Shown: positions 957 to 18,600 of the stretch, piece after piece | Layout of the letters: the number at the start of each line of letters is the position of its first letter | How positions within the stretch are numbered: the first letter of the stretch is position 1 | Virus record (IMG/VR): IMGVR_UViG_3300030118_002232 | Location: 1 to 23,818 of that record | Length of the DNA: 23,818 bases | Strand: one strand, 5' to 3' | Source of the DNA: a virus | The notes under the pieces: model-generated | Databases searched by the model: none | The model's input: the letters and a program-made list of their open reading frames with translations, nothing else | Told to the model about the DNA's origin: nothing | Program-made: the position numbers and the translations under genes

Positions 957-1787
957 TTATTTATAAAAAAGACGGTCTTTCCATGCTTTAGGTACATTAT
1001 CGTACTCATCATATATCCACTTCATGTTGTCGTATGCAAGTTTCCATGTGTCCTTATCAAGGTCACACCACTGTGAATACAAATCATCTTTCATCTTTGA
1101 GAGTCGTGCTATCTTACTATATCTTGGTTTGATATCATACTCTAAGAAGTAAGACAGAGGGTAGGTGTGACCAGCATAGAACTCCTCATTTATGATTACC
1201 TTTACATTATTTTCTCCCCACACTCTCACATACTTCTTATACTTGTCAACGTAACTCAGATTAGGATCATCAAATTTCATGTGTGACTGTGGTGTCCCAC
1301 CCTCTGTCAATGACTTTCTATTACAAACTGACCACAACCTTCTTATAGGATCTCTGAGCATCATCACCACCTTGATGTCAAAATGTTTGAGTAACTCATC
1401 TTTGATTGACAGCATGAACTCTTCTGTCAGTTGTTGTTCTGAATTAGAGAAGTCAAGAAGAGACTGATACTTACCCTCTATCTCTTTCCACAATTTGACA
1501 TAGTAACTAATGTAGTTTTCAAGACTAGGTTCTTTATCAAACGTATGTTCAGGCATGAACATGTTGTCTGGTAGTGACCATGGTCTGTACATACCTTTAC
1601 CGTACCTCTTCTTACTCTGATGTAGTTTCTCTCTATCTTTCTCTACCTGTGGTGACTGTATGTGAAGTAGATAATTACTCTCTTTTACACCACCACCATG
1701 TCCATACTTGTTACTCCATAATGTATAGTACAATGACGATGTACCAGATGAGGGGTACCCTGCATTCAATAGAAGTTTAGGTTTCAT
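957..1787 (-). CDS. PAPS-dependent sulfotransferase-like protein
   Basis: This 276-residue protein has both cofactor-binding motifs of the sulfotransferase superfamily. The N-terminal P-loop-like 5'-phosphosulfate loop is GYPSSGTSSL (residues 10-19). The 3'-phosphate motif is RDPxxRxxS (residues 145-153, within MMLRDPIRRLWS). Known members transfer sulfate from PAPS to sugars, lipids or tyrosines; the acceptor here cannot be read. No signal peptide or membrane segment is visible, so it should act in the host cytoplasm. Its ATG (1787-1785) overlaps the radical SAM stop as ATGA, which implies coupled translation with that gene. Its 3' end carries the late promoter of gp18. The motif spacing is canonical, unlike the two plus-strand sulfotransferase-like proteins at 9982 and 10845. 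Carbohydrate sulfotransferase is the most likely class. That it modifies the same target as the radical SAM pair is an inference from gene order. Confidence 0.82.
   Translation of the reverse strand: MKPKLLLNAGYPSSGTSSLYYTLWSNKYGHGGGVKESNYLLHIQSPQVEKDREKLHQSKKRYGKGMYRPWSLPDNMFMPEHTFDKEPSLENYISYYVKLWKEIEGKYQSLLDFSNSEQQLTEEFMLSIKDELLKHFDIKVVMMLRDPIRRLWSVCNRKSLTEGGTPQSHMKFDDPNLSYVDKYKKYVRVWGENNVKVIINEEFYAGHTYPLSYFLEYDIKPRYSKIARLSKMKDDLYSQWCDLDKDTWKLAYDNMKWIYDEYDNVPKAWKDRLFYK
958..965 (-). promoter_or_regulatory. T4-type late promoter (TATAAATA) for gp18
   Basis: The minus strand reads TATAAATA, the exact T4 late promoter octamer recognised by the phage late sigma factor with its clamp-loaded co-activator. 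By T4 spacing, transcription would start near 952. That gives a leader of about 32 bases before the gp18 start, with a good ribosome site inside. The octamer overlaps the last codons and the stop of the sulfotransferase gene (TAT AAA TAA), so the cassette ends exactly where sheath transcription begins. The motif is seen directly; activity is inferred. Confidence 0.75.
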
Positions 1788-2395
1788 ACGTACTTCCTTA
1801 CAGACACACCATCTATGTTAGAATAATTATCGTCAGGTTGTAAAGACTTCAATGCATCTGTGCCCCACCTACCTGAGTCAATCTGCATGAATTTTATATT
1901 GTGCTCCTTTGCTATCTGCTTACAATGTTCAACATCTTTCTGATTGTAATTGAAGACTATGTACTGCCATGTAGTAGGCACACCAAATGATGCACACTTC
2001 AACATGATGTCAAATAATTTCTCTCCGTCTTGATTGATTCTATACTTATGACTGTCCTGTGGTAAACCATCTATTGCAAACACCCACTCTATATTTTTAC
2101 CTCTCGACATTATGAATGATTTTGTCCACCACATCTTTGGTCTTGCTGCTACAGCAGTGTGAACTACAACTTTTCTATTCTTTCTCAAGCATATAGCAAG
2201 GAGGTTGTGAAAGTTTGGATGTAGTACAGGGTCAGAGACCTGACCACAAAATGTAATCGCTTTGAAAAAATTAGATATCTTCTCCATGTCCGACTCTGTA
2301 AGGTCAGAACCAGGTACATGTTTGAACTTATCTCTTGCACAACCTGGACATCTATTAGCACATCTATTTGATAGATCTAAGTTGATTCCGTACAT
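1784..2395 (-). CDS. Radical SAM core protein lacking its own C-terminal SPASM domain
   Basis: This 203-residue protein (from the ATG at 2395) carries the radical SAM cluster motif CxxxCxxC in LSNRCANRCPGCARD (Cys 12, 16 and 19), right after the first beta strand GINLDLS. Later strands look like a partial TIM barrel: FCGQVSDP replaces the GGE motif, followed by WVFAIDGL and WQYIVFNYNQ. Radical SAM enzymes cleave S-adenosylmethionine to a 5'-deoxyadenosyl radical and modify peptides, sugars or RNA. The C-terminus ends soon after the barrel and has no cysteine cluster. A SPASM-like domain is instead encoded just upstream, overlapping by 19 bases. A TTG at 2416 would add seven residues (MSSLLWI). 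I prefer ATG 2395 because the core motif normally lies close to the N-terminus. The stop overlaps the sulfotransferase start (ATGA). Substrate unknown. Confidence 0.85.
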   Translation of the reverse strand: MYGINLDLSNRCANRCPGCARDKFKHVPGSDLTESDMEKISNFFKAITFCGQVSDPVLHPNFHNLLAICLRKNRKVVVHTAVAARPKMWWTKSFIMSRGKNIEWVFAIDGLPQDSHKYRINQDGEKLFDIMLKCASFGVPTTWQYIVFNYNQKDVEHCKQIAKEHNIKFMQIDSGRWGTDALKSLQPDDNYSNIDGVSVRKYV

Positions 2396-2646
2396 GATCC
2401 ACAATAATGATGACAAACATGAGGGGCACTTTCTGGATCGTTCTTTATAACATCAAAGAAAGACTGCCATTCATCTGATAATATTATATCACTTATCTTA
2501 TCTACATTCTCTACCTTGAATTTTTCTTGCACGAGTTCAGGTATCAGATCCATGTTCTCATGATCCATCCAACAACATGGTAGTAGGTATCCAGTAGCAC
2601 TCCAACCAAAGAACCCCCACTTATCGAGGCACTTTGGTTTGATCAT
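2377..2646 (-). CDS. Stand-alone SPASM/twitch-type iron-sulfur domain protein
   Basis: This 89-residue protein starts at the ATG 2646-2644, which overlaps the gp17 stop as ATGA. A GTG at 2661 would add five residues and is less likely. Residues 6-24 fit the first half of the SPASM signature, C-x(9-15)-G-x4-C: Cys6, Gly19 and Cys24, inside GYLLPCCWMD. A second group, Cys78, Cys82 and Cys85 (HVCHHYCGSC), lies near the C-terminus. SPASM domains bind auxiliary 4Fe-4S clusters and normally form the C-terminus of radical SAM enzymes such as anaerobic sulfatase maturases and peptide-modifying enzymes. Here the domain is a separate gene placed 5' of the radical SAM core gene, with a 19-base overlap. 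It therefore probably works in trans as the auxiliary-cluster subunit. The domain call rests on cysteine spacing, which I see directly; the partnership is inferred. Confidence 0.72.
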   Translation of the reverse strand: MIKPKCLDKWGFFGWSATGYLLPCCWMDHENMDLIPELVQEKFKVENVDKISDIILSDEWQSFFDVIKNDPESAPHVCHHYCGSCTEST

Positions 2647-4292
2647 AGATGATACTCCCACATGAATGACCTGTCACCATACTCATCTGCTTTCTTCCAT
2701 CTATCACCATCTGAGTCTACCTCCTCATAATCTTCCAATCCATCAAGCACAAAACCAAACGGTGCCATGTCCTGTTCTATAGCATTCTTTTGCTCTTCGT
2801 ATATACGTTTTCTTACATCTTGATCTGTCATCTCTTTGAAGTAGTCCTGTGCCACCAACCATGAGAATATAACAAGACACATGGCAAGGTCATCATTACA
2901 ACCTTCCTCTGCCTCAAACGATTGCTTCTTCTGTATGAACGTGGTCAATTCAGATATGATATTATAATCACAGAATATAAGTTTGTCCTCCTCTATCAGT
3001 GTCTTCAGGTTAGAGCAACCTACCTTCTTTGTAGTGGTGCTCATCTTGACACCTAGTTGTGTCTTGACACCAGAGAATCCTGATCCCACTATCTGACCTG
3101 CTCTACCACGCATGGCAACCATAAGTAAGTTCTCATACTCTAGGTCATAGAATAGTATGGATGCAACCTGATCACCAATATCATTGACCTCACACAAGAC
3201 ATATGCATTGTTGTACGCTGTTGCTACCTCCTCAATTACAGATGGGAATAGCATTGGTTTTATCTCATTGTCTCTATATGTTGCCACTATCTTGTATGGG
3301 AACTCCGTGATATCAGCAACGATGAATGCACTATAGTCTTTAGACACACCTCTCGCTACGTCCACTGTCACAATGTAATCTCTCTTAGGGTATGGTCTCT
3401 CATACACAGACAGTTTGCCATTCTGTTCTATTGGTTGCTCATACACCAGTGACTTGAGTTTTGATGCTGCTATCAGTGTGTCTACAGATCCTAGGAACTC
3501 ACACTCAAACTCAATAGCAAACTGTTGCTTACTCGTGTTCTTTATCGTCTGTTCTTTCCACTTGGCATTTCTACCTGGCACCTCAGACCAGTGCACCTCA
3601 GTTGCAACATACTCATTCTGTCCACGTTCAGCATCATGCCACATACGATAGAAGTGATTCATACCATGTGGAGTGGATACTATTATAACCTTCGTAGATT
3701 TACCAGAAGATATAGTAGGATACACAGACGCAAAGAAATCATCTGCAAGATGGTTCTGCACGAATGCAAACTCATCAAGGAAGATGATGTTGAATGACAT
3801 ACCTCGAACTGCTGATGCAGATGTAGATGCTGCTATTATTTTTGATCCGTTTTCGAGTTCCATAGAACCCTTATTCCACGCAACGATTCCTTGCTGCATC
3901 CACCTCGGCAAGTTTTCATACGCCAGTTGTAATCGTCCGAGCAGATCTCTAGCAGTCGCTGCTTTATTAGCGAGAATTCCGATGTTGACATTATCGTTGA
4001 AGATAGCGTAATGGAGAAGATATGATACCACCGTTGTAGACTTACCAGTCTGTCGTGGCATTTTACAGATATTAAACCTATGCTTATGAAAATTCTTTAG
4101 TAGTTTCTTTTGAAACTTATACATGTTGAAATGAACAAGACCCTCATCCACGTTCACTATTCGTATATGCTTCTCTGTGAAGTATACTGGGTCGTTCTTA
4201 CACTTGAGGAATTCTTTTACATCTTCCTCAGTGAATTGTTGTTGAGTATTTGCTTTCTTTAGATTCGGATTACCAAGATAAATGTCACTCAT
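2643..4292 (-). CDS. gp17: Terminase large subunit (DNA packaging ATPase and nuclease)
   Basis: This 549-residue packaging motor protein docks on the portal, pumps DNA into the prohead and cuts the concatemer. The ATPase domain shows Walker A at residues 79-86 (PRQTGKST), Walker B with catalytic glutamate at 170-174 (IFLDE), and a coupling motif STPHG at 206-210. The RNase H-like nuclease domain shows the acidic triad of the T4 family: Asp311 (TVDVARG), Glu368 (CEVND) and an Asp pair at 467-468 (CNDDLAM). The length is slightly below T4 gp17 (about 610 residues). The start is ATG 4292, after the short spacer behind the Lys/Ala-rich gene. Its stop overlaps the start of the SPASM gene by ATGA, so cassette 1 is translationally coupled to the motor gene. 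No sign of an intron or homing endonuclease, which some T4-like phages carry near this gene. Confidence 0.97.
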   Translation of the reverse strand: MSDIYLGNPNLKKANTQQQFTEEDVKEFLKCKNDPVYFTEKHIRIVNVDEGLVHFNMYKFQKKLLKNFHKHRFNICKMPRQTGKSTTVVSYLLHYAIFNDNVNIGILANKAATARDLLGRLQLAYENLPRWMQQGIVAWNKGSMELENGSKIIAASTSASAVRGMSFNIIFLDEFAFVQNHLADDFFASVYPTISSGKSTKVIIVSTPHGMNHFYRMWHDAERGQNEYVATEVHWSEVPGRNAKWKEQTIKNTSKQQFAIEFECEFLGSVDTLIAASKLKSLVYEQPIEQNGKLSVYERPYPKRDYIVTVDVARGVSKDYSAFIVADITEFPYKIVATYRDNEIKPMLFPSVIEEVATAYNNAYVLCEVNDIGDQVASILFYDLEYENLLMVAMRGRAGQIVGSGFSGVKTQLGVKMSTTTKKVGCSNLKTLIEEDKLIFCDYNIISELTTFIQKKQSFEAEEGCNDDLAMCLVIFSWLVAQDYFKEMTDQDVRKRIYEEQKNAIEQDMAPFGFVLDGLEDYEEVDSDGDRWKKADEYGDRSFMWEYHL

Positions 4293-9897: not shown

Positions 9898-9927
9898 TGT
9901 ATAGCTTGTTTGGTATATACCTGATGT

Positions 9928-9943
9928 GACTGTATATACAGTC
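9928..9943. repeat. Perfect 16-bp palindrome in the divergent promoter region
   Basis: GACTGTATATACAGTC is exactly self-complementary. It lies between the fibre gene (minus) and the sulfotransferase-like gene (plus). It overlaps the candidate -35 box of the plus-strand promoter. By T4 late spacing it also begins at the predicted first base of the minus-strand late transcript, where it would form a 6-bp stem with a 4-base loop at the 5' end. It could be an operator, a 5' mRNA stabilising hairpin, or both. Confidence 0.8.
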
Positions 9944-9963
9944 CAGATTATTTATGTTATAAT
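9935..9963 (+). promoter_or_regulatory. Sigma70-like promoter for the plus-strand sulfotransferase block
   Basis: A perfect -10 box TATAAT (9958-9963) is preceded, after a 17-base spacer, by TATACA (9935-9940), four of six matches to TTGACA. It faces the first plus-strand gene and would start transcription near 9970, leaving only about a dozen leader bases with AAGG as ribosome site. A host-type promoter here fits early expression, unlike the late genes around it. Motifs are seen; activity is inferred. Confidence 0.55.
9949..9956 (-). promoter_or_regulatory. T4-like late promoter (CATAAATA) for the fibre gene
   Basis: The minus strand reads CATAAATA, seven of eight matches to TATAAATA. The predicted start is 9943, the first base of the palindrome, giving a leader of about 46 bases to the ATG at 9897. 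It lies inside the spacer of the opposing sigma70-like promoter, so the two promoters should interfere with each other. Confidence 0.55.
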
Positions 9964-9981: not shown

Positions 9982-10695
9982 ATGATGAACAAGACGCTTG
10001 TCGTGCTCACGGGACCTCAAGGTTCGGGCAACCACCTTTGGTCTAAAATTTTCTCACTTCACCAAGACGTTTTTGGTTGGAAGAGTCTCTTAGATAATTA
10101 CTGGGAGGCACACCGTTTTTCAGAGCCCTTTGCGGAATATTGGAGGGATCCATCCACTCTGCATAAATTTGACTGGTCGCTTAGTCAATATTTTTTTACT
10201 TCTATAAGTATCCCACTTGGCATACAAAGTAAAGGGACGAAATGGTGTCCAAACGTCGAGCAGTTTTGCTCCAATGCACAGGACTTGGGTATTGATACCA
10301 GAGTCATAGTCATAGGTAGGGATCAGAACATACTCCATAATCAACAAACTAGAATACGAGAAGAATCCACCACAAGACACTTCCTAGATCAATTACCTAA
10401 ATTCAAAAATCCACAATTCCTTAGTTACGAATTGTTATATTTGTATAAATCAGAATATTTGAAGTCATTAGACATAGGTATACCAATAGCATGGTACGAT
10501 GATAGAGTAAATGAAATACTAGAACAAGATGCGAATGCAAAGTATATCGGATATGTCAAAGAGAATCCTCTTGACGATGGTAATAAGACTGGAGTTCCCT
10601 TTCCATGGAATCCAAACAATCCAGAGTATCGAAAACCAATAACAAAAGAGACGGATCATGCCTACGATGAAGGATCGAATGGGAAATGCTGCTAG
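9982..10695 (+). CDS. Sulfotransferase-like P-loop protein, copy 1
   Basis: This 237-residue protein begins TLVVLTGPQGSGNHLW, a P-loop (GPQGSGNH, residues 11-18) typical of sulfotransferase and kinase folds. A second conserved site, VIVIGRDQN (residues 107-116), occupies the place of the 3'-phosphate motif of PAPS sulfotransferases but reads RDxN rather than RDPxxRxxS. A later LSYELLYLYKSEYLKSLDIGIP fits the helix after it. It is clearly paralogous to the protein at 10845-11462 (shared GPQGSGNHL, VxGWxSLxDxYW, EPFAxYW and RDxN). Because the motif is altered, the donor could be PAPS or another phosphorylated nucleotide. Start ATG 9982, or ATG 9985, follows AAGG. Its 3' end overlaps the small membrane protein gene. 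It is encoded against the direction of the late genes. Confidence 0.75.
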   Translation: MMNKTLVVLTGPQGSGNHLWSKIFSLHQDVFGWKSLLDNYWEAHRFSEPFAEYWRDPSTLHKFDWSLSQYFFTSISIPLGIQSKGTKWCPNVEQFCSNAQDLGIDTRVIVIGRDQNILHNQQTRIREESTTRHFLDQLPKFKNPQFLSYELLYLYKSEYLKSLDIGIPIAWYDDRVNEILEQDANAKYIGYVKENPLDDGNKTGVPFPWNPNNPEYRKPITKETDHAYDEGSNGKCC

Positions 10696-10951
10696 GATTT
10701 GGAAATATGCACTCGGATCATTCTCAGACGACAGAACAAAAGAATATGACAATCACGTACTTGTGGTACGGTCTGTTATATTTTTTACCTACCTCATTAC
10801 TAATTGCTTTATTATTAGCGGAGTAATCCGCCACTGGAATGCCAATGAAAAAACTACTGATTGTGACAGGACCTCAGGGATCTGGGAATCACCTGTTCGC
10901 CAGAATACTATCTCTACACCCCAACGTGGTTGGGTGGGAGAGTCTACATGA
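10679..10951 (+). CDS. Small membrane protein, C-terminus overprinted by the next gene
   Basis: This protein of about 90 residues starts MGNAARIWKYALGSFSDDRTKEYDN, followed by one hydrophobic segment of about 22 residues (VIFFTYLITNCFIISGVI) and RHWN. The start ATG 10679 is chosen because GAAGGA lies four bases before it; ATG 10667 and 10658 have no such site. The layout (short polar N-terminus, a WKYALGSF motif, single transmembrane segment, RHW) resembles a small conserved protein of marine T4-like phages, which as I recall ends soon after RHW; I cannot verify that here. In this copy the frame runs on for about 35 more residues of unremarkable composition across the start of the second sulfotransferase-like gene (113-base overlap). 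It overlaps the first sulfotransferase-like gene by 17 bases. Function unknown; a membrane partner of the flanking enzymes is possible. Confidence 0.62.
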   Translation: MGNAARIWKYALGSFSDDRTKEYDNHVLVVRSVIFFTYLITNCFIISGVIRHWNANEKTTDCDRTSGIWESPVRQNTISTPQRGWVGEST

Positions 10952-11462
10952 TAAGTATTGGGTTCCTAGTGATGAAGAACCATTTGCAAGATACTGGGTA
11001 CATCCAGAAGAACTAGAATTTCCTGAGGGTGATTTCTTCTGTGCTAATGTCAGTGTGCCTTTCTTCTATGATGGTGTCAGACAAGTACCAAAAATAAAAG
11101 AGGTTGCACAGAAAGCGATATCGCTAGGTGTACAACCTATCATTGCAGTTATTGTTAGAGACAGAAATATAAACGAACTACAGCAAGTAAGAGTGGGTGG
11201 TGAGTGCACCATGGACACTGCACTAGAATACTATAAAGATATGGCAGTACACTTCATAGATCACGAAGCATTCTTTCTATACAAAGAAAAGTATGTTGAG
11301 TACCTTGGTCGTATGCTAGAATTTCCAGTCATAAAAGAAGGCATCGACAACTTTATAAGCGTCGATGCCAACCATAAGTATGTCTTTCCCTGCAAGAAGC
11401 ATTGGTTAGACGATGAGATCCGTAAGGGTCGTAAGACCTTTAAACAACGGCTAGAGGAGTAG
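10845..11462 (+). CDS. Sulfotransferase-like P-loop protein, copy 2
   Basis: This protein of about 205 residues starts KKLLIVTGPQGSGNHLFARIL, with the same P-loop as copy 1 at 9982-10695. It also shares VVGWESLHDKYW, EPFARYWVHP and a central IIAVIVRDRNINELQQVR in which RDRN replaces the canonical RDPxxR. It lacks the longer C-terminus of copy 1. The ATG at 10845 is preferred because GGAA lies about five bases upstream; ATG 10839 would add two residues. A tight inverted repeat (GCGGA-GTAA-TCCGC, 10819-10832) lies just before the start, inside the membrane protein gene. Its stop lies 23 bases inside the 3' end of the convergent ferritin-like gene. Tandem duplication of one ancestral gene is the simplest origin. 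The acceptor is unknown. Confidence 0.75.
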   Translation: MKKLLIVTGPQGSGNHLFARILSLHPNVVGWESLHDKYWVPSDEEPFARYWVHPEELEFPEGDFFCANVSVPFFYDGVRQVPKIKEVAQKAISLGVQPIIAVIVRDRNINELQQVRVGGECTMDTALEYYKDMAVHFIDHEAFFLYKEKYVEYLGRMLEFPVIKEGIDNFISVDANHKYVFPCKKHWLDDEIRKGRKTFKQRLEE

Positions 11463-12861: not shown

Positions 12862-14466
12862 CTAGAACGAGCCACCGTCTATGGTTATGTTTTCTAATGA
12901 CCTTGTTGTACCAGAACAAGATATAACTTGAGTTTGACCTGCACAGTCATTCACAAATAGAGATCCAATCTCTAGTCCTGAGTATGCACTTGCTGTCAAT
13001 ACCCCTGCTGACTCAGATACTTCTGCACCTAGTGCTATTCTACCTGCTGAGTCATCCCAATATATCGCTGCTTTCTTTGCAGAACCACTGTAGTAGTTCA
13101 ATACAAGACCAACGTCTTTGTCTGTGTCACTGCTGAGTGCACCACCGTCAACAACTTGTAGTTCAAGAAGAACGTCTTCAATAGTTGTGTTTGTTGTATT
13201 GACCTGAGTGGTAGTACCATTTACTGTCAAGTTACCACCAATAGTCAAGTTGGTAGTTACACTTGCAGCACCTGTGACTGTCAATGTAGATCCGTCAAAG
13301 GTAAGGTTACCACTATCTTCTAGTTCACCAGATGAACCTGCAAGAACTACTCTTCCAGATGTAAGGTCGGCTACTGCTGCTGATGTAGCAGAAACTGTAC
13401 CACCTGACTGGTTACCAGTTACGTTACCAGTCACGTTTCCTGAGACGTTACCTGTAACAGCACCTGTAAGAGCACCAACAAAACTTGTTGATGATAGAGC
13501 ACCTGTGCTTGGATTATATGTGAGTCCTGTATCTGATTCTAGACCTTGTGCACCAGTAGCACCATCTACAAATACTGGGAACACAGTTTCGTTCGTAGTA
13601 TTGTTTGCAGTGATAGTAGAAGTTGCTGCTAATGTAGCAGTGTCTGCATTACCTGTTGTATCTTGAGAACCTGCAGTGTTTACACCTGGTAGGTTGATGT
13701 TTGCTGTACCATCGAATGATACACCACCTATATTTCTTGCTGTTTCTAATGCTGTTGCTGTTGCTGCGTTACCTGAAGTATCTTGGTTACCTGAAGCATT
13801 GACACCTGGCAAGTTGATATTTGCTGTACCATCAAATGATACACCACCTATTGTCCTTGCGTTCGCTAGTGCTGTAGCAGTTGCTGCATTACCTGTACAT
13901 GATCCTGATGAACCAGAGACGTTACCAGTGACAGCACCTGTGAGGTTACCTGAGAATGATGACGCTGTCAGTTCTCCTGATGATGCATTGAATGTAAGGT
14001 TTGTTCCAGTCTTAGGTTGAATGTCACCTGTTGCTTGGGTGGCAAACATTGGGAAGCATGTAGTATCAGCAGATTCATCTGTTACTGCAATATCACTAAC
14101 TGCACCAGAGTTTTGGGGTGCAGTATCAAATGAAAGTTCTCCTGACGAATTACATTTCAAGAATCCATTATTGACTGCTGCTGCTGGCATCACGTAGACT
14201 TGGTTGTCTGACAATGAAGCAGGTGCCTTGATAGTGATAGCACTTGCACCGTTGTTCTGTGCCTCTACTAATTTTACACCTGAGGCATTAGTGGCATCTC
14301 CCTTTTCCCAGAATCTTGCTGACCCTATAAATTGGTTGTTAGTTGTTGTAGAGTCTATACCAACATATAGATCATTCTTATCAACGGTGAAACCTGGTTC
14401 ACCTGCTTGTAAACCTGGCAAACTCGCAAGGTTACCTCTCTTAAACTGTAATACTGGAGCAGCCAT
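12862..14466 (-). CDS. Tail fibre-like repeat protein
   Basis: This 534-residue protein has an N-terminal receptor-binding-type motif (LQFKRGNLASLPGLQAGEPG, then VDKNDLYVGID), related to the N-terminus of the 371-residue fibre-like protein. The central part is low-complexity and rich in Ala, Thr, Gly and Asn. Shaft repeats include two copies of about 40 residues containing GGVSFDGTANINLPGVN (about residues 205-285). Further on, a GxVTGNVSGNVTGNVTGNQ stretch resembles fibre shafts. The C-terminus (NLTVNGTTTQVNTTNTTIED, LNYYSGSAKKAAIYWDD and SLENITIDGGSF) is a common ending in fibre proteins of marine T4-like phages. It probably forms a trimeric fibre or a baseplate-associated spike. An AATAAATA box and AGGA site precede the ATG at 14466. 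Receptor unknown. Confidence 0.85.
   Translation of the reverse strand: MAAPVLQFKRGNLASLPGLQAGEPGFTVDKNDLYVGIDSTTTNNQFIGSARFWEKGDATNASGVKLVEAQNNGASAITIKAPASLSDNQVYVMPAAAVNNGFLKCNSSGELSFDTAPQNSGAVSDIAVTDESADTTCFPMFATQATGDIQPKTGTNLTFNASSGELTASSFSGNLTGAVTGNVSGSSGSCTGNAATATALANARTIGGVSFDGTANINLPGVNASGNQDTSGNAATATALETARNIGGVSFDGTANINLPGVNTAGSQDTTGNADTATLAATSTITANNTTNETVFPVFVDGATGAQGLESDTGLTYNPSTGALSSTSFVGALTGAVTGNVSGNVTGNVTGNQSGGTVSATSAAVADLTSGRVVLAGSSGELEDSGNLTFDGSTLTVTGAASVTTNLTIGGNLTVNGTTTQVNTTNTTIEDVLLELQVVDGGALSSDTDKDVGLVLNYYSGSAKKAAIYWDDSAGRIALGAEVSESAGVLTASAYSGLEIGSLFVNDCAGQTQVISCSGTTRSLENITIDGGSF
13640..13900. repeat. 120-bp period direct repeats within the fibre gene
   Basis: A 50-base stretch at 13682-13731 recurs at 13802-13851 with four mismatches. 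Flanking parts (GTTACCTGAAGTATCTTG-like) repeat with the same 120-base period, corresponding to 40 residues of the fibre shaft. A more decayed unit lies just before. Such repeats can recombine and change shaft length. Confidence 0.8.
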
Positions 14467-14922: not shown

Positions 14923-15264
14923 TCATAATGCCGATGTAGGGTTTACCATTACTTGCCCAGTGAAAATCTTTGTTTTTGCACCAGAAAAGTTATTAGTGAT
15001 CAGCACATCATACTCGTATCTACCTGAGGTTATGATACCAGTTTGTGCAGGTGTCATGGATAAAGTCACCTGACCGTCAGCAGGTGTAGATCCATACGTC
15101 ACAGCAAATCCTATTGAACCTGCTGCTGTGGCATGTTTTCTCATCTTCGCACTAAAACTGAATCCGTTGAGATTCAACGGGGAGTTATCTTGCTTCTTCA
15201 CATCGAATGTTGAAGAGAAGGTTGCCCCTTGTTCTATTTGAATATTGACTGATGGAACTGCCAT
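14923..15264 (-). CDS. Small beta-sandwich structural protein (baseplate or fibre accessory)
   Basis: This 113-residue protein starts MAVPSVNIQIEQGATFSSTF and has alternating beta-strand pattern: LNLNGFSFSAKMRKHAT, GQVTLSMTPAQTGIITSGRYEYDVLI, and KTKIFTGQVMVNPTSAL at the end. The arrangement (EQGATF, then SAKMR, T-AQT-I-xxGxYxYDV, GxVxVxPxxS) is seen in small Ig-like baseplate or upper-baseplate domains of many phages. The role here is inferred from that and from the structural neighbourhood. It starts five bases before the stop of the neighbouring small coiled-coil gene's spacer and has no clear ribosome site. It ends one base before the next gene (TGATATG). Confidence 0.72.
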   Translation of the reverse strand: MAVPSVNIQIEQGATFSSTFDVKKQDNSPLNLNGFSFSAKMRKHATAAGSIGFAVTYGSTPADGQVTLSMTPAQTGIITSGRYEYDVLITNNFSGAKTKIFTGQVMVNPTSAL

Positions 15265-15670: not shown

Positions 15671-18600
15671 TATGCCACAGCGATGGCACGGAAGTCAAGT
15701 AACTCAGGTGCTTGTGCTTGGTTTGTTGATGAGAAGCAAACCTTGACTTGGAATCCTGTGAATGGAGGTAAACCATTCTTTGTGAATTCATACTCAAGGA
15801 ACTGATCTTCCAAACTAGGAACCACGTTTCTATCAGGTCTACCACTGTTGTTCTTCTCAGATATAACAAACCCAGATGAGTCAAGGTTCTCATAACCTGG
15901 CATCAACTCAAACACTTTGTCTAATGAATCAGCGTCTGCTCTGAATAGTCTGTACAACACTCTGACATCTGCAGCTGGTGGTCTGAACGCAGCGAATAAT
16001 ACTTTGAGTGATGTTGCAGGGTTCTCCAACATTATAACTTTTGTTTGATATAGTTGATTATGTGGATCATCAAGTTGATTTGCCTTACTGCTTAGAGCAT
16101 AGTTATCAACAGGTTTGTTGATTCTATTAGTTGTGACATTTATAGAACTCTTGAATGCATCAATCACAGGTGATACATCCTCATTAGTAGTGCTCAAGTT
16201 CAAATCAACAGTAAGAGATTTCTCACCTGGTCTTGTAGACAACTGTGCTGATTCATTTACCTTAGAAGCAACCATACGAACTGTGTCAAACTTAGTTTCA
16301 TTTACAAGTGATATACTATCGTAACCCTTGTCTGAGAATGACGCTTCACCGCCACTAACACTTGTTGCAGATGTAGTTCTCATACTTGAATTGATTACAG
16401 TTCCCTTAGGTATGCTGTGAGCGATGGCAGGTGAGATTGTATCAAATACTATGTTTGTACTTGCTTTACCTCTTGTGCCTCCACCTGGCTTGTCCTTAGT
16501 GAACAACGCAGATCCAGTGATCTTGACATGATAGGAGTCGAGAGTTGTTTTCTCGTCTATGGATGTTGATGCGTTTATGATAGAGTGATTTGTGTTTATC
16601 TTTCTAAGAGATACACCAGACAACTCATACTTCTGTACAGGTGTGCCCACTGGATAGGTTCTTGCAAAAGTATCGTCATTACCTCTGGTTATAGTACCAC
16701 TCAACTGGTTAGTACCAACAGATGTGTATTGAATAATCTCGTCACCAAGTAATGCAAAACCAGGATTGCTGGATGATACTTGTGACCCTTCAAAGAAGTT
16801 GAATCCAATACTACTTGCTACGCTGACCACACTGGTGTCACTGACACCATATGCAACAGTTGTTTTTGTTGGAACTGTGTCACCTGTGATGCCATTTATC
16901 TTGACTGTATTATTTGCAGCATAGTTTCCATGGTTAGGATGACTTACTTTGAAATGTAATCCATCATACTGATCAGTGTTTGTTGTCACTGTGGATGGTA
17001 TGATATTATTCACAGTTACACCATAACCTAATGAAGCATCATGATACTGTATGGGATTGGTGGTGTCGAATGTTCCCTTACTGTTAGTAAGAAGAAGTGA
17101 GTTTACACCAGTTGTTACACCAACAGTGAGAAGAAGATTCTGTCCTAGTCCCTTGTTACCAAGAGATGCAGTCAATGTGTCACCCACATTATAACCTGTT
17201 CCTGTATTGTCATTGATGACTGTGACTCCTGTAACCACATTACTTGATACAGTCACGACACCTACGGCTCCTGATCCTGATCCTGTGAGACTTACGAACT
17301 CGACTGATGGGTATGTTGCATCTTCATAATTTGTACCACCATTTGTGATGGTGAGAGTGCTGGCTGTCTGTCCAAGATGTCCAAGTTTTGCTGCCACAAT
17401 ACCTGATGCTCCCGAATTGGAATCTTGTTTGATTTCTGTGCCAAGGTCTATGATACCATCACCGATGGCAGATCCAAGACCCACAGTTACACGTTTTGCA
17501 AATGTCTCTATTGGATTTTCTGGAAGATTGTTTCTAGTGTCAAATGTATCTAATTGAGGATTATAGAATCTTACTGTACCTGAGTTCAATGTGAACTTCG
17601 CCTTCCTTGCTGTATACTTCATGTCTTCCAACTGTGATGGAGTCCATGTGCCAGCAGTCTGACCCTTGAATAGAGAACCTAGTGATGGTTGTTTTGTTAC
17701 GATAACCTTTCCAAGTTCAGTGTTGTCAGCTGTTGATATGTCAGCCTCACCCACTTGACAGATCCACTGGTTGTATTCAGATGTTGCAGTTACTATAACA
17801 AAAGCATACTCTCCTCTAGGTAAGTAGATTGGAGATGGGAATGTGAATGTAGTTGGTACAGTTGCATCTGATGATACGTTGACTTGATCAGGGTTCAGTA
17901 TTACTTGTCCATTCTTGACAATGTTTCTTGATGGATATCCATTGACAACATTCACTACCCTCACATCAAGTGGTATGGTGTCAGATTTAGTAGCGAAGAA
18001 GAAGTCAACTGATGTCATAAAGATACCAGGATTTTCTTCTACTTGGAATGTCTGAGCAAGAGGGTCATCATCAACTTCCTGTACTTGTTGAACAATGGTA
18101 TTCTGAATGTTAGTAATATTGTTTGTTACGTTAGTAATGTTGAATATTACTGGTTCAGGTATGACAGGAGGTGCTGGCTCTGTTCTCTCAAGGGTAGTAT
18201 TTGTTATCAAAGTACCCTCAGAGAAGTGGTCTGCTGCAGCTCTTGAGAAGTTCAAGCCAGGATAATTATCCTGTGACCTTAGACTTGATAGTAGAGCTGT
18301 ATTTGTACCATTCTCAAATCTTTCTGGTGGGATATAGTATGATCCAAGCAGTGCACCAAAGTCATCTGATATAAGTCTGATTTGATTGATCTCTGCCTCT
18401 GCACCACTGGTCTCTCCTACTAATCTCATACCTACAAGAGCAAATCCAAAGAAGTTACCATCTGACTTTTGATTCAATGACTGTATATCTACGTTCAATA
18501 CAGTTGTAGTCTCAGAGTACGCTGATGATAAACCTACATTCGCTGTGTATGGGTTATTAGTGAAAGTAATTGTAGGATTGTTGAAAGGTCCGTCTTTGTG

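Follow-up and report, generated by a model that had tools for sequence, protein, structure and literature searches.

Comparing related phage sequences, we show that a 16-bp palindrome in front of a phage tail-fibre gene belongs to a covarying, single-strand-specific RNA leader tied to that one gene. The comparison demonstrates conservation at the RNA level, strand polarity, a position at the predicted +1, specificity for the fibre gene and one copy per genome. The leader lies in the window, by which we mean the whole 23,818-nucleotide stretch analysed (positions 1 to 23,818 of IMG/VR record IMGVR_UViG_3300030118_002232), which is part of a T4-like cyanomyovirus whose large terminase shares 75-82% identity with its counterparts in cultured Kyanoviridae and in marine single-cell viruses. 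Tail fibres determine which hosts a phage can infect, and to our knowledge little is known about how fibre amount and timing are set in marine T4-like phages. The leader is present in the cultured phages P-SSM2 and S-B43, which makes the question of fibre control testable in existing infection systems; it also provides a sequence signature by which metagenomes can be searched for the fibre gene and its promoter, and offers a possible specific RNA-protein pair. We found no fibre leader motif of this kind in the literature searched, and large catalogues of candidate phage and microbiome RNAs could include such a leader. Its features suggest a hitherto undescribed RNA element that switches or stabilises fibre production, and not a switch at the DNA level between the opposed promoters.

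The divergent gap and its palindrome

The start codons of the fibre-like gene and of a P-loop gene on the opposite strand are 84 bases apart by our count; the initial annotation gave 85 and had the positions of the octamer, the early promoter and the palindrome right (Table 1). On the fibre strand, CATAAATA has the form of a T4-type late promoter, a NATAAATA octamer that precedes the start by roughly one turn of the helix; NATAAATA is the published late motif of cyanophages (PMC2984593), and the octamer core is invariant among close relatives. The late start is predicted from the octamer position, with T4 late octamers set at -13 to -6. On the other strand, variation at the site was read from sixty relatives of the P-loop gene. 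TGN-TATAATTA is present in 46 of 46 distinct relatives, a conserved -10, whereas the hexamer under the palindrome shifts whenever the hairpin changes and matches a -35 at 0 to 4 of 6 positions, and is not conserved as a -35. The plus-strand promoter is thus best read, from its sequence, as an extended -10 promoter. Because its TG shares 2 bp with the late octamer, simple early/late exclusion is possible, and the palindrome is not needed for it; the early/late switch would be at most a lineage-specific side effect of this overlap.

The P-loop gene and a second one at 10839-11462 (plus strand) are tandem paralogues with a GPQGSGNHLW/F motif, on the strand opposite the virion genes. Neither has a confident match in Pfam, PHROGs or NCBIfam, and no relative of the first was found in cultured phages. 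A small ORF separates the two (10679-10843, plus strand), and its DNA shares 77.6% identity, over 147 bases, with a P-SSM7 gene annotated 'Rnf-Nqr' (PSSM7_186).

Table 1. Features of the divergent gap and its flanking genes, in window coordinates.
Feature	Position	Strand	Basis and remarks
Tail-fibre-like gene, 371 aa	8782..9897	minus	N-terminal module M-xxP-KIKIKRSSVAGKVP co-occurs with the leader
Predicted 46-nt 5' leader of the late fibre transcript	9898..9943	minus	Folds into two hairpins, -9.1 kcal/mol
Hairpin 2, GGU-AUAU-ACC	9912..9921	minus	Ends 14 nt before the fibre AUG; UANAUA apex common to relatives, stem covaries
Hairpin 1, GACUGU-AUAU-ACAGUC	9928..9943	minus	Begins at the predicted +1; sequence, comparison, covariance model
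T4-type late promoter octamer CATAAATA	9949..9956	minus	Sequence; predicted +1 at 9943
Sigma70-like promoter TATACA-17-TATAAT, with TG extended -10	9935-9963	plus	Sequence
TATACA, weak -35-like hexamer within the palindrome	9935..9940	plus	4/6 match; not conserved as -35
Extended -10 TGTTATAAT of the opposed sigma70-like promoter	9955..9963	plus	TGN-TATAATTA kept in relatives
P-loop (GPQGSGNHLW) gene	9982..10695	plus	Driven by the plus-strand promoter; lineage-specific neighbour outside the leader

The sequence GACTGTATATACAGTC at 9928-9943 is, as the initial annotation claimed, a perfect 16-bp palindrome that covers the early -35-like hexamer and whose first minus-strand base is the predicted late +1. 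The palindrome by itself is not significant, because about 0.5 perfect palindromes of at least 16 bp are expected per window (first-order Markov model of the window) and there is a second one, CAGGATAATTATCCTG, at 18258-18273 within a 2356-aa ORF. Its meaning comes from being conserved at its site. A search of the 23.8-kb record for other copies, which had been advised, returned none besides 9928-9943; the exact 16-mer occurs in 38 IMG/VR stretches, about 32 of them at the same kind of leader site, and in close relatives the palindrome is conserved as a hairpin in fibre leaders. We rejected a terminator, as the hairpin opens the unit and its stem is not followed by a run of T on the fibre strand, and a LexA-like box, which the CTG-N6-CAG spacing does not fit.

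Only this palindrome had been considered previously, and the second hairpin at 9912-9921 was missed. Both hairpins carry a U-[ANAU]-A apex. The fold of the 46-nt leader has a z of -2.68 against dinucleotide shuffles; such single-sequence thermodynamic z-scores are modest, as expected with short hairpins. A covariance model of the leader (R1) matches 9910-9957 on the minus strand at E 1e-10, the window having been in its training set. No Rfam family scores above its curated threshold at the element. Kissing between the two loops was rejected, since, for example, ACAU and AGAU are not complementary.

Conservation as RNA in front of one fibre gene

The hairpin pair is found in many aquatic phages (P-SSM2, S-B43, DSL-LC02 and more than 100 viral contigs), upstream of fibre genes that share an N-terminal module. 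Relatives of the fibre-like protein match the tail fiber family phrog_17885, and for the N-terminal module itself we found no Pfam entry and no solved relative. A pattern search that fixed only the octamer, the two loops and GGU/ACC matched at least 120 viral stretches. Among the matches listed, 103 new loci represent 88 distinct segments, and 86 of the 88 have a helix-1 stem of at least 4 bp, pairing that the pattern did not require; some matches are related sequences, so these counts are not independent events. Nearly all of the listed loci precede a protein starting like M-xxP-xIRIKRSAVPGKxP. As a control, 257 Gb of cellular contigs gave about 64 pattern matches with a stem of at least 5 bp in 4, two of which are fibre genes on contigs, binned into MAGs, that are probably phage.

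To obtain an unbiased set, we chose loci by the fibre N-terminal module alone (alignment A2) and then read the upstream region. An ANAU hairpin of at least 5 bp is present in 60 of 68 distinct regions (dinucleotide-shuffled mean 1.9, maximum 7), and both hairpins in 51 of 68 (shuffled mean 0.1, maximum 2). Together with the cellular-contig control, this protein-selected set rejects an artefact of the search pattern.

The stems change and the pairing is kept. Fibre-strand variants of hairpin 1 include GACUGU-ANAU-ACAGUC, GACAGU-AGAU-ACUGUC and AGUGGU-AUAU-ACCACU, with GGU-ANAU-ACC downstream, and in cultured phages the stems are unrelated (ACACUU-AUAU-AAGUGU in S-B43, GCAGU-AUAU-ACUGC in P-SSM2, GAGGGUU-ACAU-AACUCUU in DSL-LC02, UGGUGGU-AUAU-ACCACCA in DSL-LC03). 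In P-SSM2 the fibre gene is PSSM2_293, and its hairpin has its first base at about record position 214828. A comparison of the leader DNA with cultured phages returned chance matches only. In an alignment of 63 distinct hairpin pairs, both partners have changed at 9 of the 11 base pairs (164 cells, versus 41 in shuffles), and the covariation score of 0.678 compares with 0.168 in shuffled and at most 0.192 in slid alignments and was reached by none of 500 shuffles. Excising the hairpins centred on their ANAU loops favours pairing in this alignment, a bias that the slid controls and a free-loop test address. Helix 1 is paired in 100% of cells in 49 distinct leaders, with G-U at the base in 17; read on the other strand, these basal pairs would be A-C mismatches. 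In the stems, G-U is more frequent than A-C (23 to 7).

The loops have a strand as well. When the tetraloop was left free, the best apex of hairpin 1 was UANAUA in 58 of 62 leaders, with N other than U in 12 and the reverse orientation in 0, and that of hairpin 2 was UANAUA in 53 of 62, with N being C in 18, A in 17, U in 17 and G in 1. For hairpin 2, UANAUA with N other than U outnumbers the reverse orientation by 36 to 0. On the fibre strand, and there alone, the second loop position is free to vary while the third stays A, the pattern of an RNA loop and not of a double-stranded dyad or operator. Compensatory changes in the helices and a consistent tie to one gene family are what a structured cis-regulatory RNA exhibits.

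The leader is also independent of the P-loop unit. In P-SSM2 and S-B43 the hairpins precede the fibre gene with no opposed early promoter. At six loci (L013, L122, L125, L137, L143, L149) both hairpins and the late octamer stand before another fibre gene (MASPILQFKRGN...), and the P-loop promoter is absent from the opposite strand; this fibre gene is homologous to window 12862-14466, and profile comparison makes its N-terminus a probable distant homologue of the first module (hhalign probability 73%, E 3e-5). Conversely, L108 and L109 have neither octamer nor hairpins, yet the extended -10 of the P-loop gene is still there. In P-SSM2, S-CAM7 and ACG-2014f (L157, L272, L273) the gene immediately preceding the fibre gene encodes a putative or HNH endonuclease, which may have to do with the exchange of fibres.

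Specificity, position and a sister group

A UANAUA 5' hairpin is found in 121 of 144 fibre leaders, a set that is partly pattern-selected, versus 3 of 165 other late-octamer leaders; at least 2 of these 3 appear to be fibres missed by the classifier. A general property of late leaders is rejected by the 162 of 165 that have no such hairpin. The octamer and its predicted distance from the start are like those of T4-type late promoters (NATAAATA in cyanophages, PMC2984593), but ordinary ones have no conserved leader structure. When 35 records were searched with R1, 22 had exactly one match, including P-SSM2, S-B43, S-B05, DSL-LC02 and DSL-LC03, and 13 had none, among them the cultured cyanomyoviruses S-SM2, Bellamy, S-T4 and S-CAM7; the element is common, not universal. 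In P-SSM2 and S-B43 the N-terminal module occurs once, immediately behind the leader.

The commonest offset between the start of the hairpin-1 stem and the predicted +1 is 0, and most fall within -2 to +3. The earlier view that the late fibre transcript would begin with a hairpin is supported as a prediction, and the hairpin is conserved and covaries as RNA. Hairpin 2 ends about 7-23 nt before the AUG across relatives. The idea that it is kept only as a GGU Shine-Dalgarno was rejected: it is often at least 17 nt from the AUG, and stems such as GCU/AGC, UCU/AGA and GUU/AAC occur. In T4-like leaders an SD-like 4-mer at -16..-4 is present in only 44 of 129, and hairpin 2 does not clearly cover the Shine-Dalgarno, so that the case for translational control rests on proximity and on a sister group of fibre genes.

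These sister fibres, starting MANTIKLKRSAVAGK, have neither the late octamer nor the 5' hairpin, and mostly carry one AUG-proximal UANAUA hairpin. A single such hairpin 14-16 nt before the AUG is present in 42 of 60 distinct upstream regions, versus 0.7 in Markov sequences. It is nested in a covarying outer stem that pairs the Shine-Dalgarno (GUCC/GGAC, UCCC/GGGA, UCCU/AGGA, CCUC/GAGG). The outer-stem pairing was reached by none of 2000 permutations of the 5' flanks among sequences, a test used because the register of the stem shifts and RNAalifold missed it. We regard this group as the best clue to mechanism, given that a module-linked hairpin is placed where control of translation would be possible. 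At the sister loci L443-L522 the nested hairpin region is 45 nt upstream of the fibre start. Just 5' of hairpin 1 at L336, L354, L357, L366, L501 and L516, in a group without the late octamer, there is a GGTGGG...CCCACC inverted repeat that may be the terminator of the preceding gene.

A proposed mechanism and its alternatives

In our proposal the element regulates one late fibre gene in cis as an RNA leader, combining a protein-read apex, translational control and 5'-end protection, and we consider this reading fairly probable. Late transcription from NATAAATA would start at the foot of hairpin 1, so that the 5' end of the fibre mRNA would be a hairpin, and a few bases further along would come another hairpin, again with U-[ANAU]-A at its apex, ending about 7-23 nt before the AUG. 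A putative protein would recognise the apex common to both; on hairpin 2, aided by hairpin 1, it would control translation initiation and thereby the amount or timing of fibre protein. The 5'-terminal hairpin would also shield the mRNA end. We infer the start at hairpin 1, the apex-binding protein and the translational outcome, including the direction of control, from position, apex conservation and the sister group. A more specific proposal, and a doubtful one, is that the basic N-terminal module KxKRSAVPGK, or the fibre trimer, binds both UANAUA hairpins of its own mRNA and stops translation when fibres exceed attachment sites, forming an RNA feedback loop common to unrelated tailed phages and carried along in fibre swaps. 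The module is attractive as a candidate binder only because it travels with the leader.

It is possible, though on balance unlikely, that the leader is purely an mRNA stabiliser, in which the 5'-terminal hairpin protects against 5'-end-dependent decay, hairpin 2 adds another obstacle, and the loop has no specific protein reader. Hairpin 1 starts at or within a few bases of the predicted +1, and its stems vary freely while pairing is kept, just as a barrier would allow. Against this, both hairpins retain U-[ANAU]-A, although the loop of a mere barrier would be free to change; in the sister group, where the late octamer and the 5' hairpin are missing, the hairpin near the AUG is the only one retained; and other late mRNAs do not have this hairpin. 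The sister group also bears on a translation enhancer, in which the hairpins would keep the AUG region accessible as a standby site. Although hairpin 2 lies just upstream of the ribosome footprint and the stretch from there to the AUG is mostly unstructured and A/U-rich, the sister hairpin closes a stem that hides the Shine-Dalgarno, pointing to repression, and we find an enhancer very improbable.

We give little credence to a recombination anchor, a block from late promoter to N-terminus kept for fibre-gene swapping with the hairpins as passengers. Fibres of both the KIKIKRS and the MASPILQFKRGN type do follow the leader, and their lengths are very diverse, but stem sequences diverge while pairing is kept, the opposite of what a homology anchor needs. 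Least credible, and strongly disfavoured, is a DNA operator on which a dimeric protein would repress the early P-loop unit. The initial annotation gave the palindrome two roles: that of a 5' RNA hairpin for the late unit is supported, the hairpin being conserved and covarying as RNA, and that of an early operator is not. In favour of an operator, the palindrome lies over the -35 region of a promoter with a conserved extended -10. A dimeric operator would, however, vary symmetrically around a conserved half-site, whereas here the half-sites vary, with stems turning to unrelated sequences, and the apex changes asymmetrically, on the fibre strand only. Moreover, most relatives have no opposed promoter: hairpins occur without an early promoter (P-SSM2, S-B43 and the L013/L122 type), and L108/L109 have the promoter without the palindrome.

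Among known systems, the T4/RB69 gene 43 translational operator is a hairpin bound by gp43 (review PMC3014915). The fibre leader resembles it in being a short RNA hairpin just upstream of a phage gene start, with a conserved apex and a variable lower stem, and the position of hairpin 2 and the Shine-Dalgarno pairing in the sister group likewise place structure next to or over the ribosome binding site. The gene 43 operator differs in having a UAAC loop, a replication gene, a single hairpin and a known binder, as against UANAUA, a fibre gene, tandem hairpins and a putative binder. Escherichia coli ompA and T4 gene 32 have 5'-terminal stabilising stem-loops. Like these, the leader has a hairpin at or near the mRNA 5' end; unlike them, it has a conserved loop sequence, a second copy near the AUG and a single fibre gene. 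Promoter-early stem-loop (PeSL) cassettes, reportedly described in T4-type phages by Arbiol et al. 2010, also have a stem-loop beside a phage promoter in a shuffled region. In contrast to PeSL cassettes, in which the stem-loop and an early promoter go together within one unit, the fibre-leader hairpin is inside the predicted late transcript, and most relatives have no early promoter at the site.

Two further features of the window are recorded here. For the octamer AATAAATA (15277-15264, minus strand), the ATG at 15264 is so near that transcription from it would begin on the start codon itself. A radical SAM-like gene at 1784-2416 lies beside unassigned genes at 957-1787 and 2377-2661 (window 957-2661, minus strand), and this cluster is inserted between the terminase large subunit and sheath genes, an unusual place for cargo genes.
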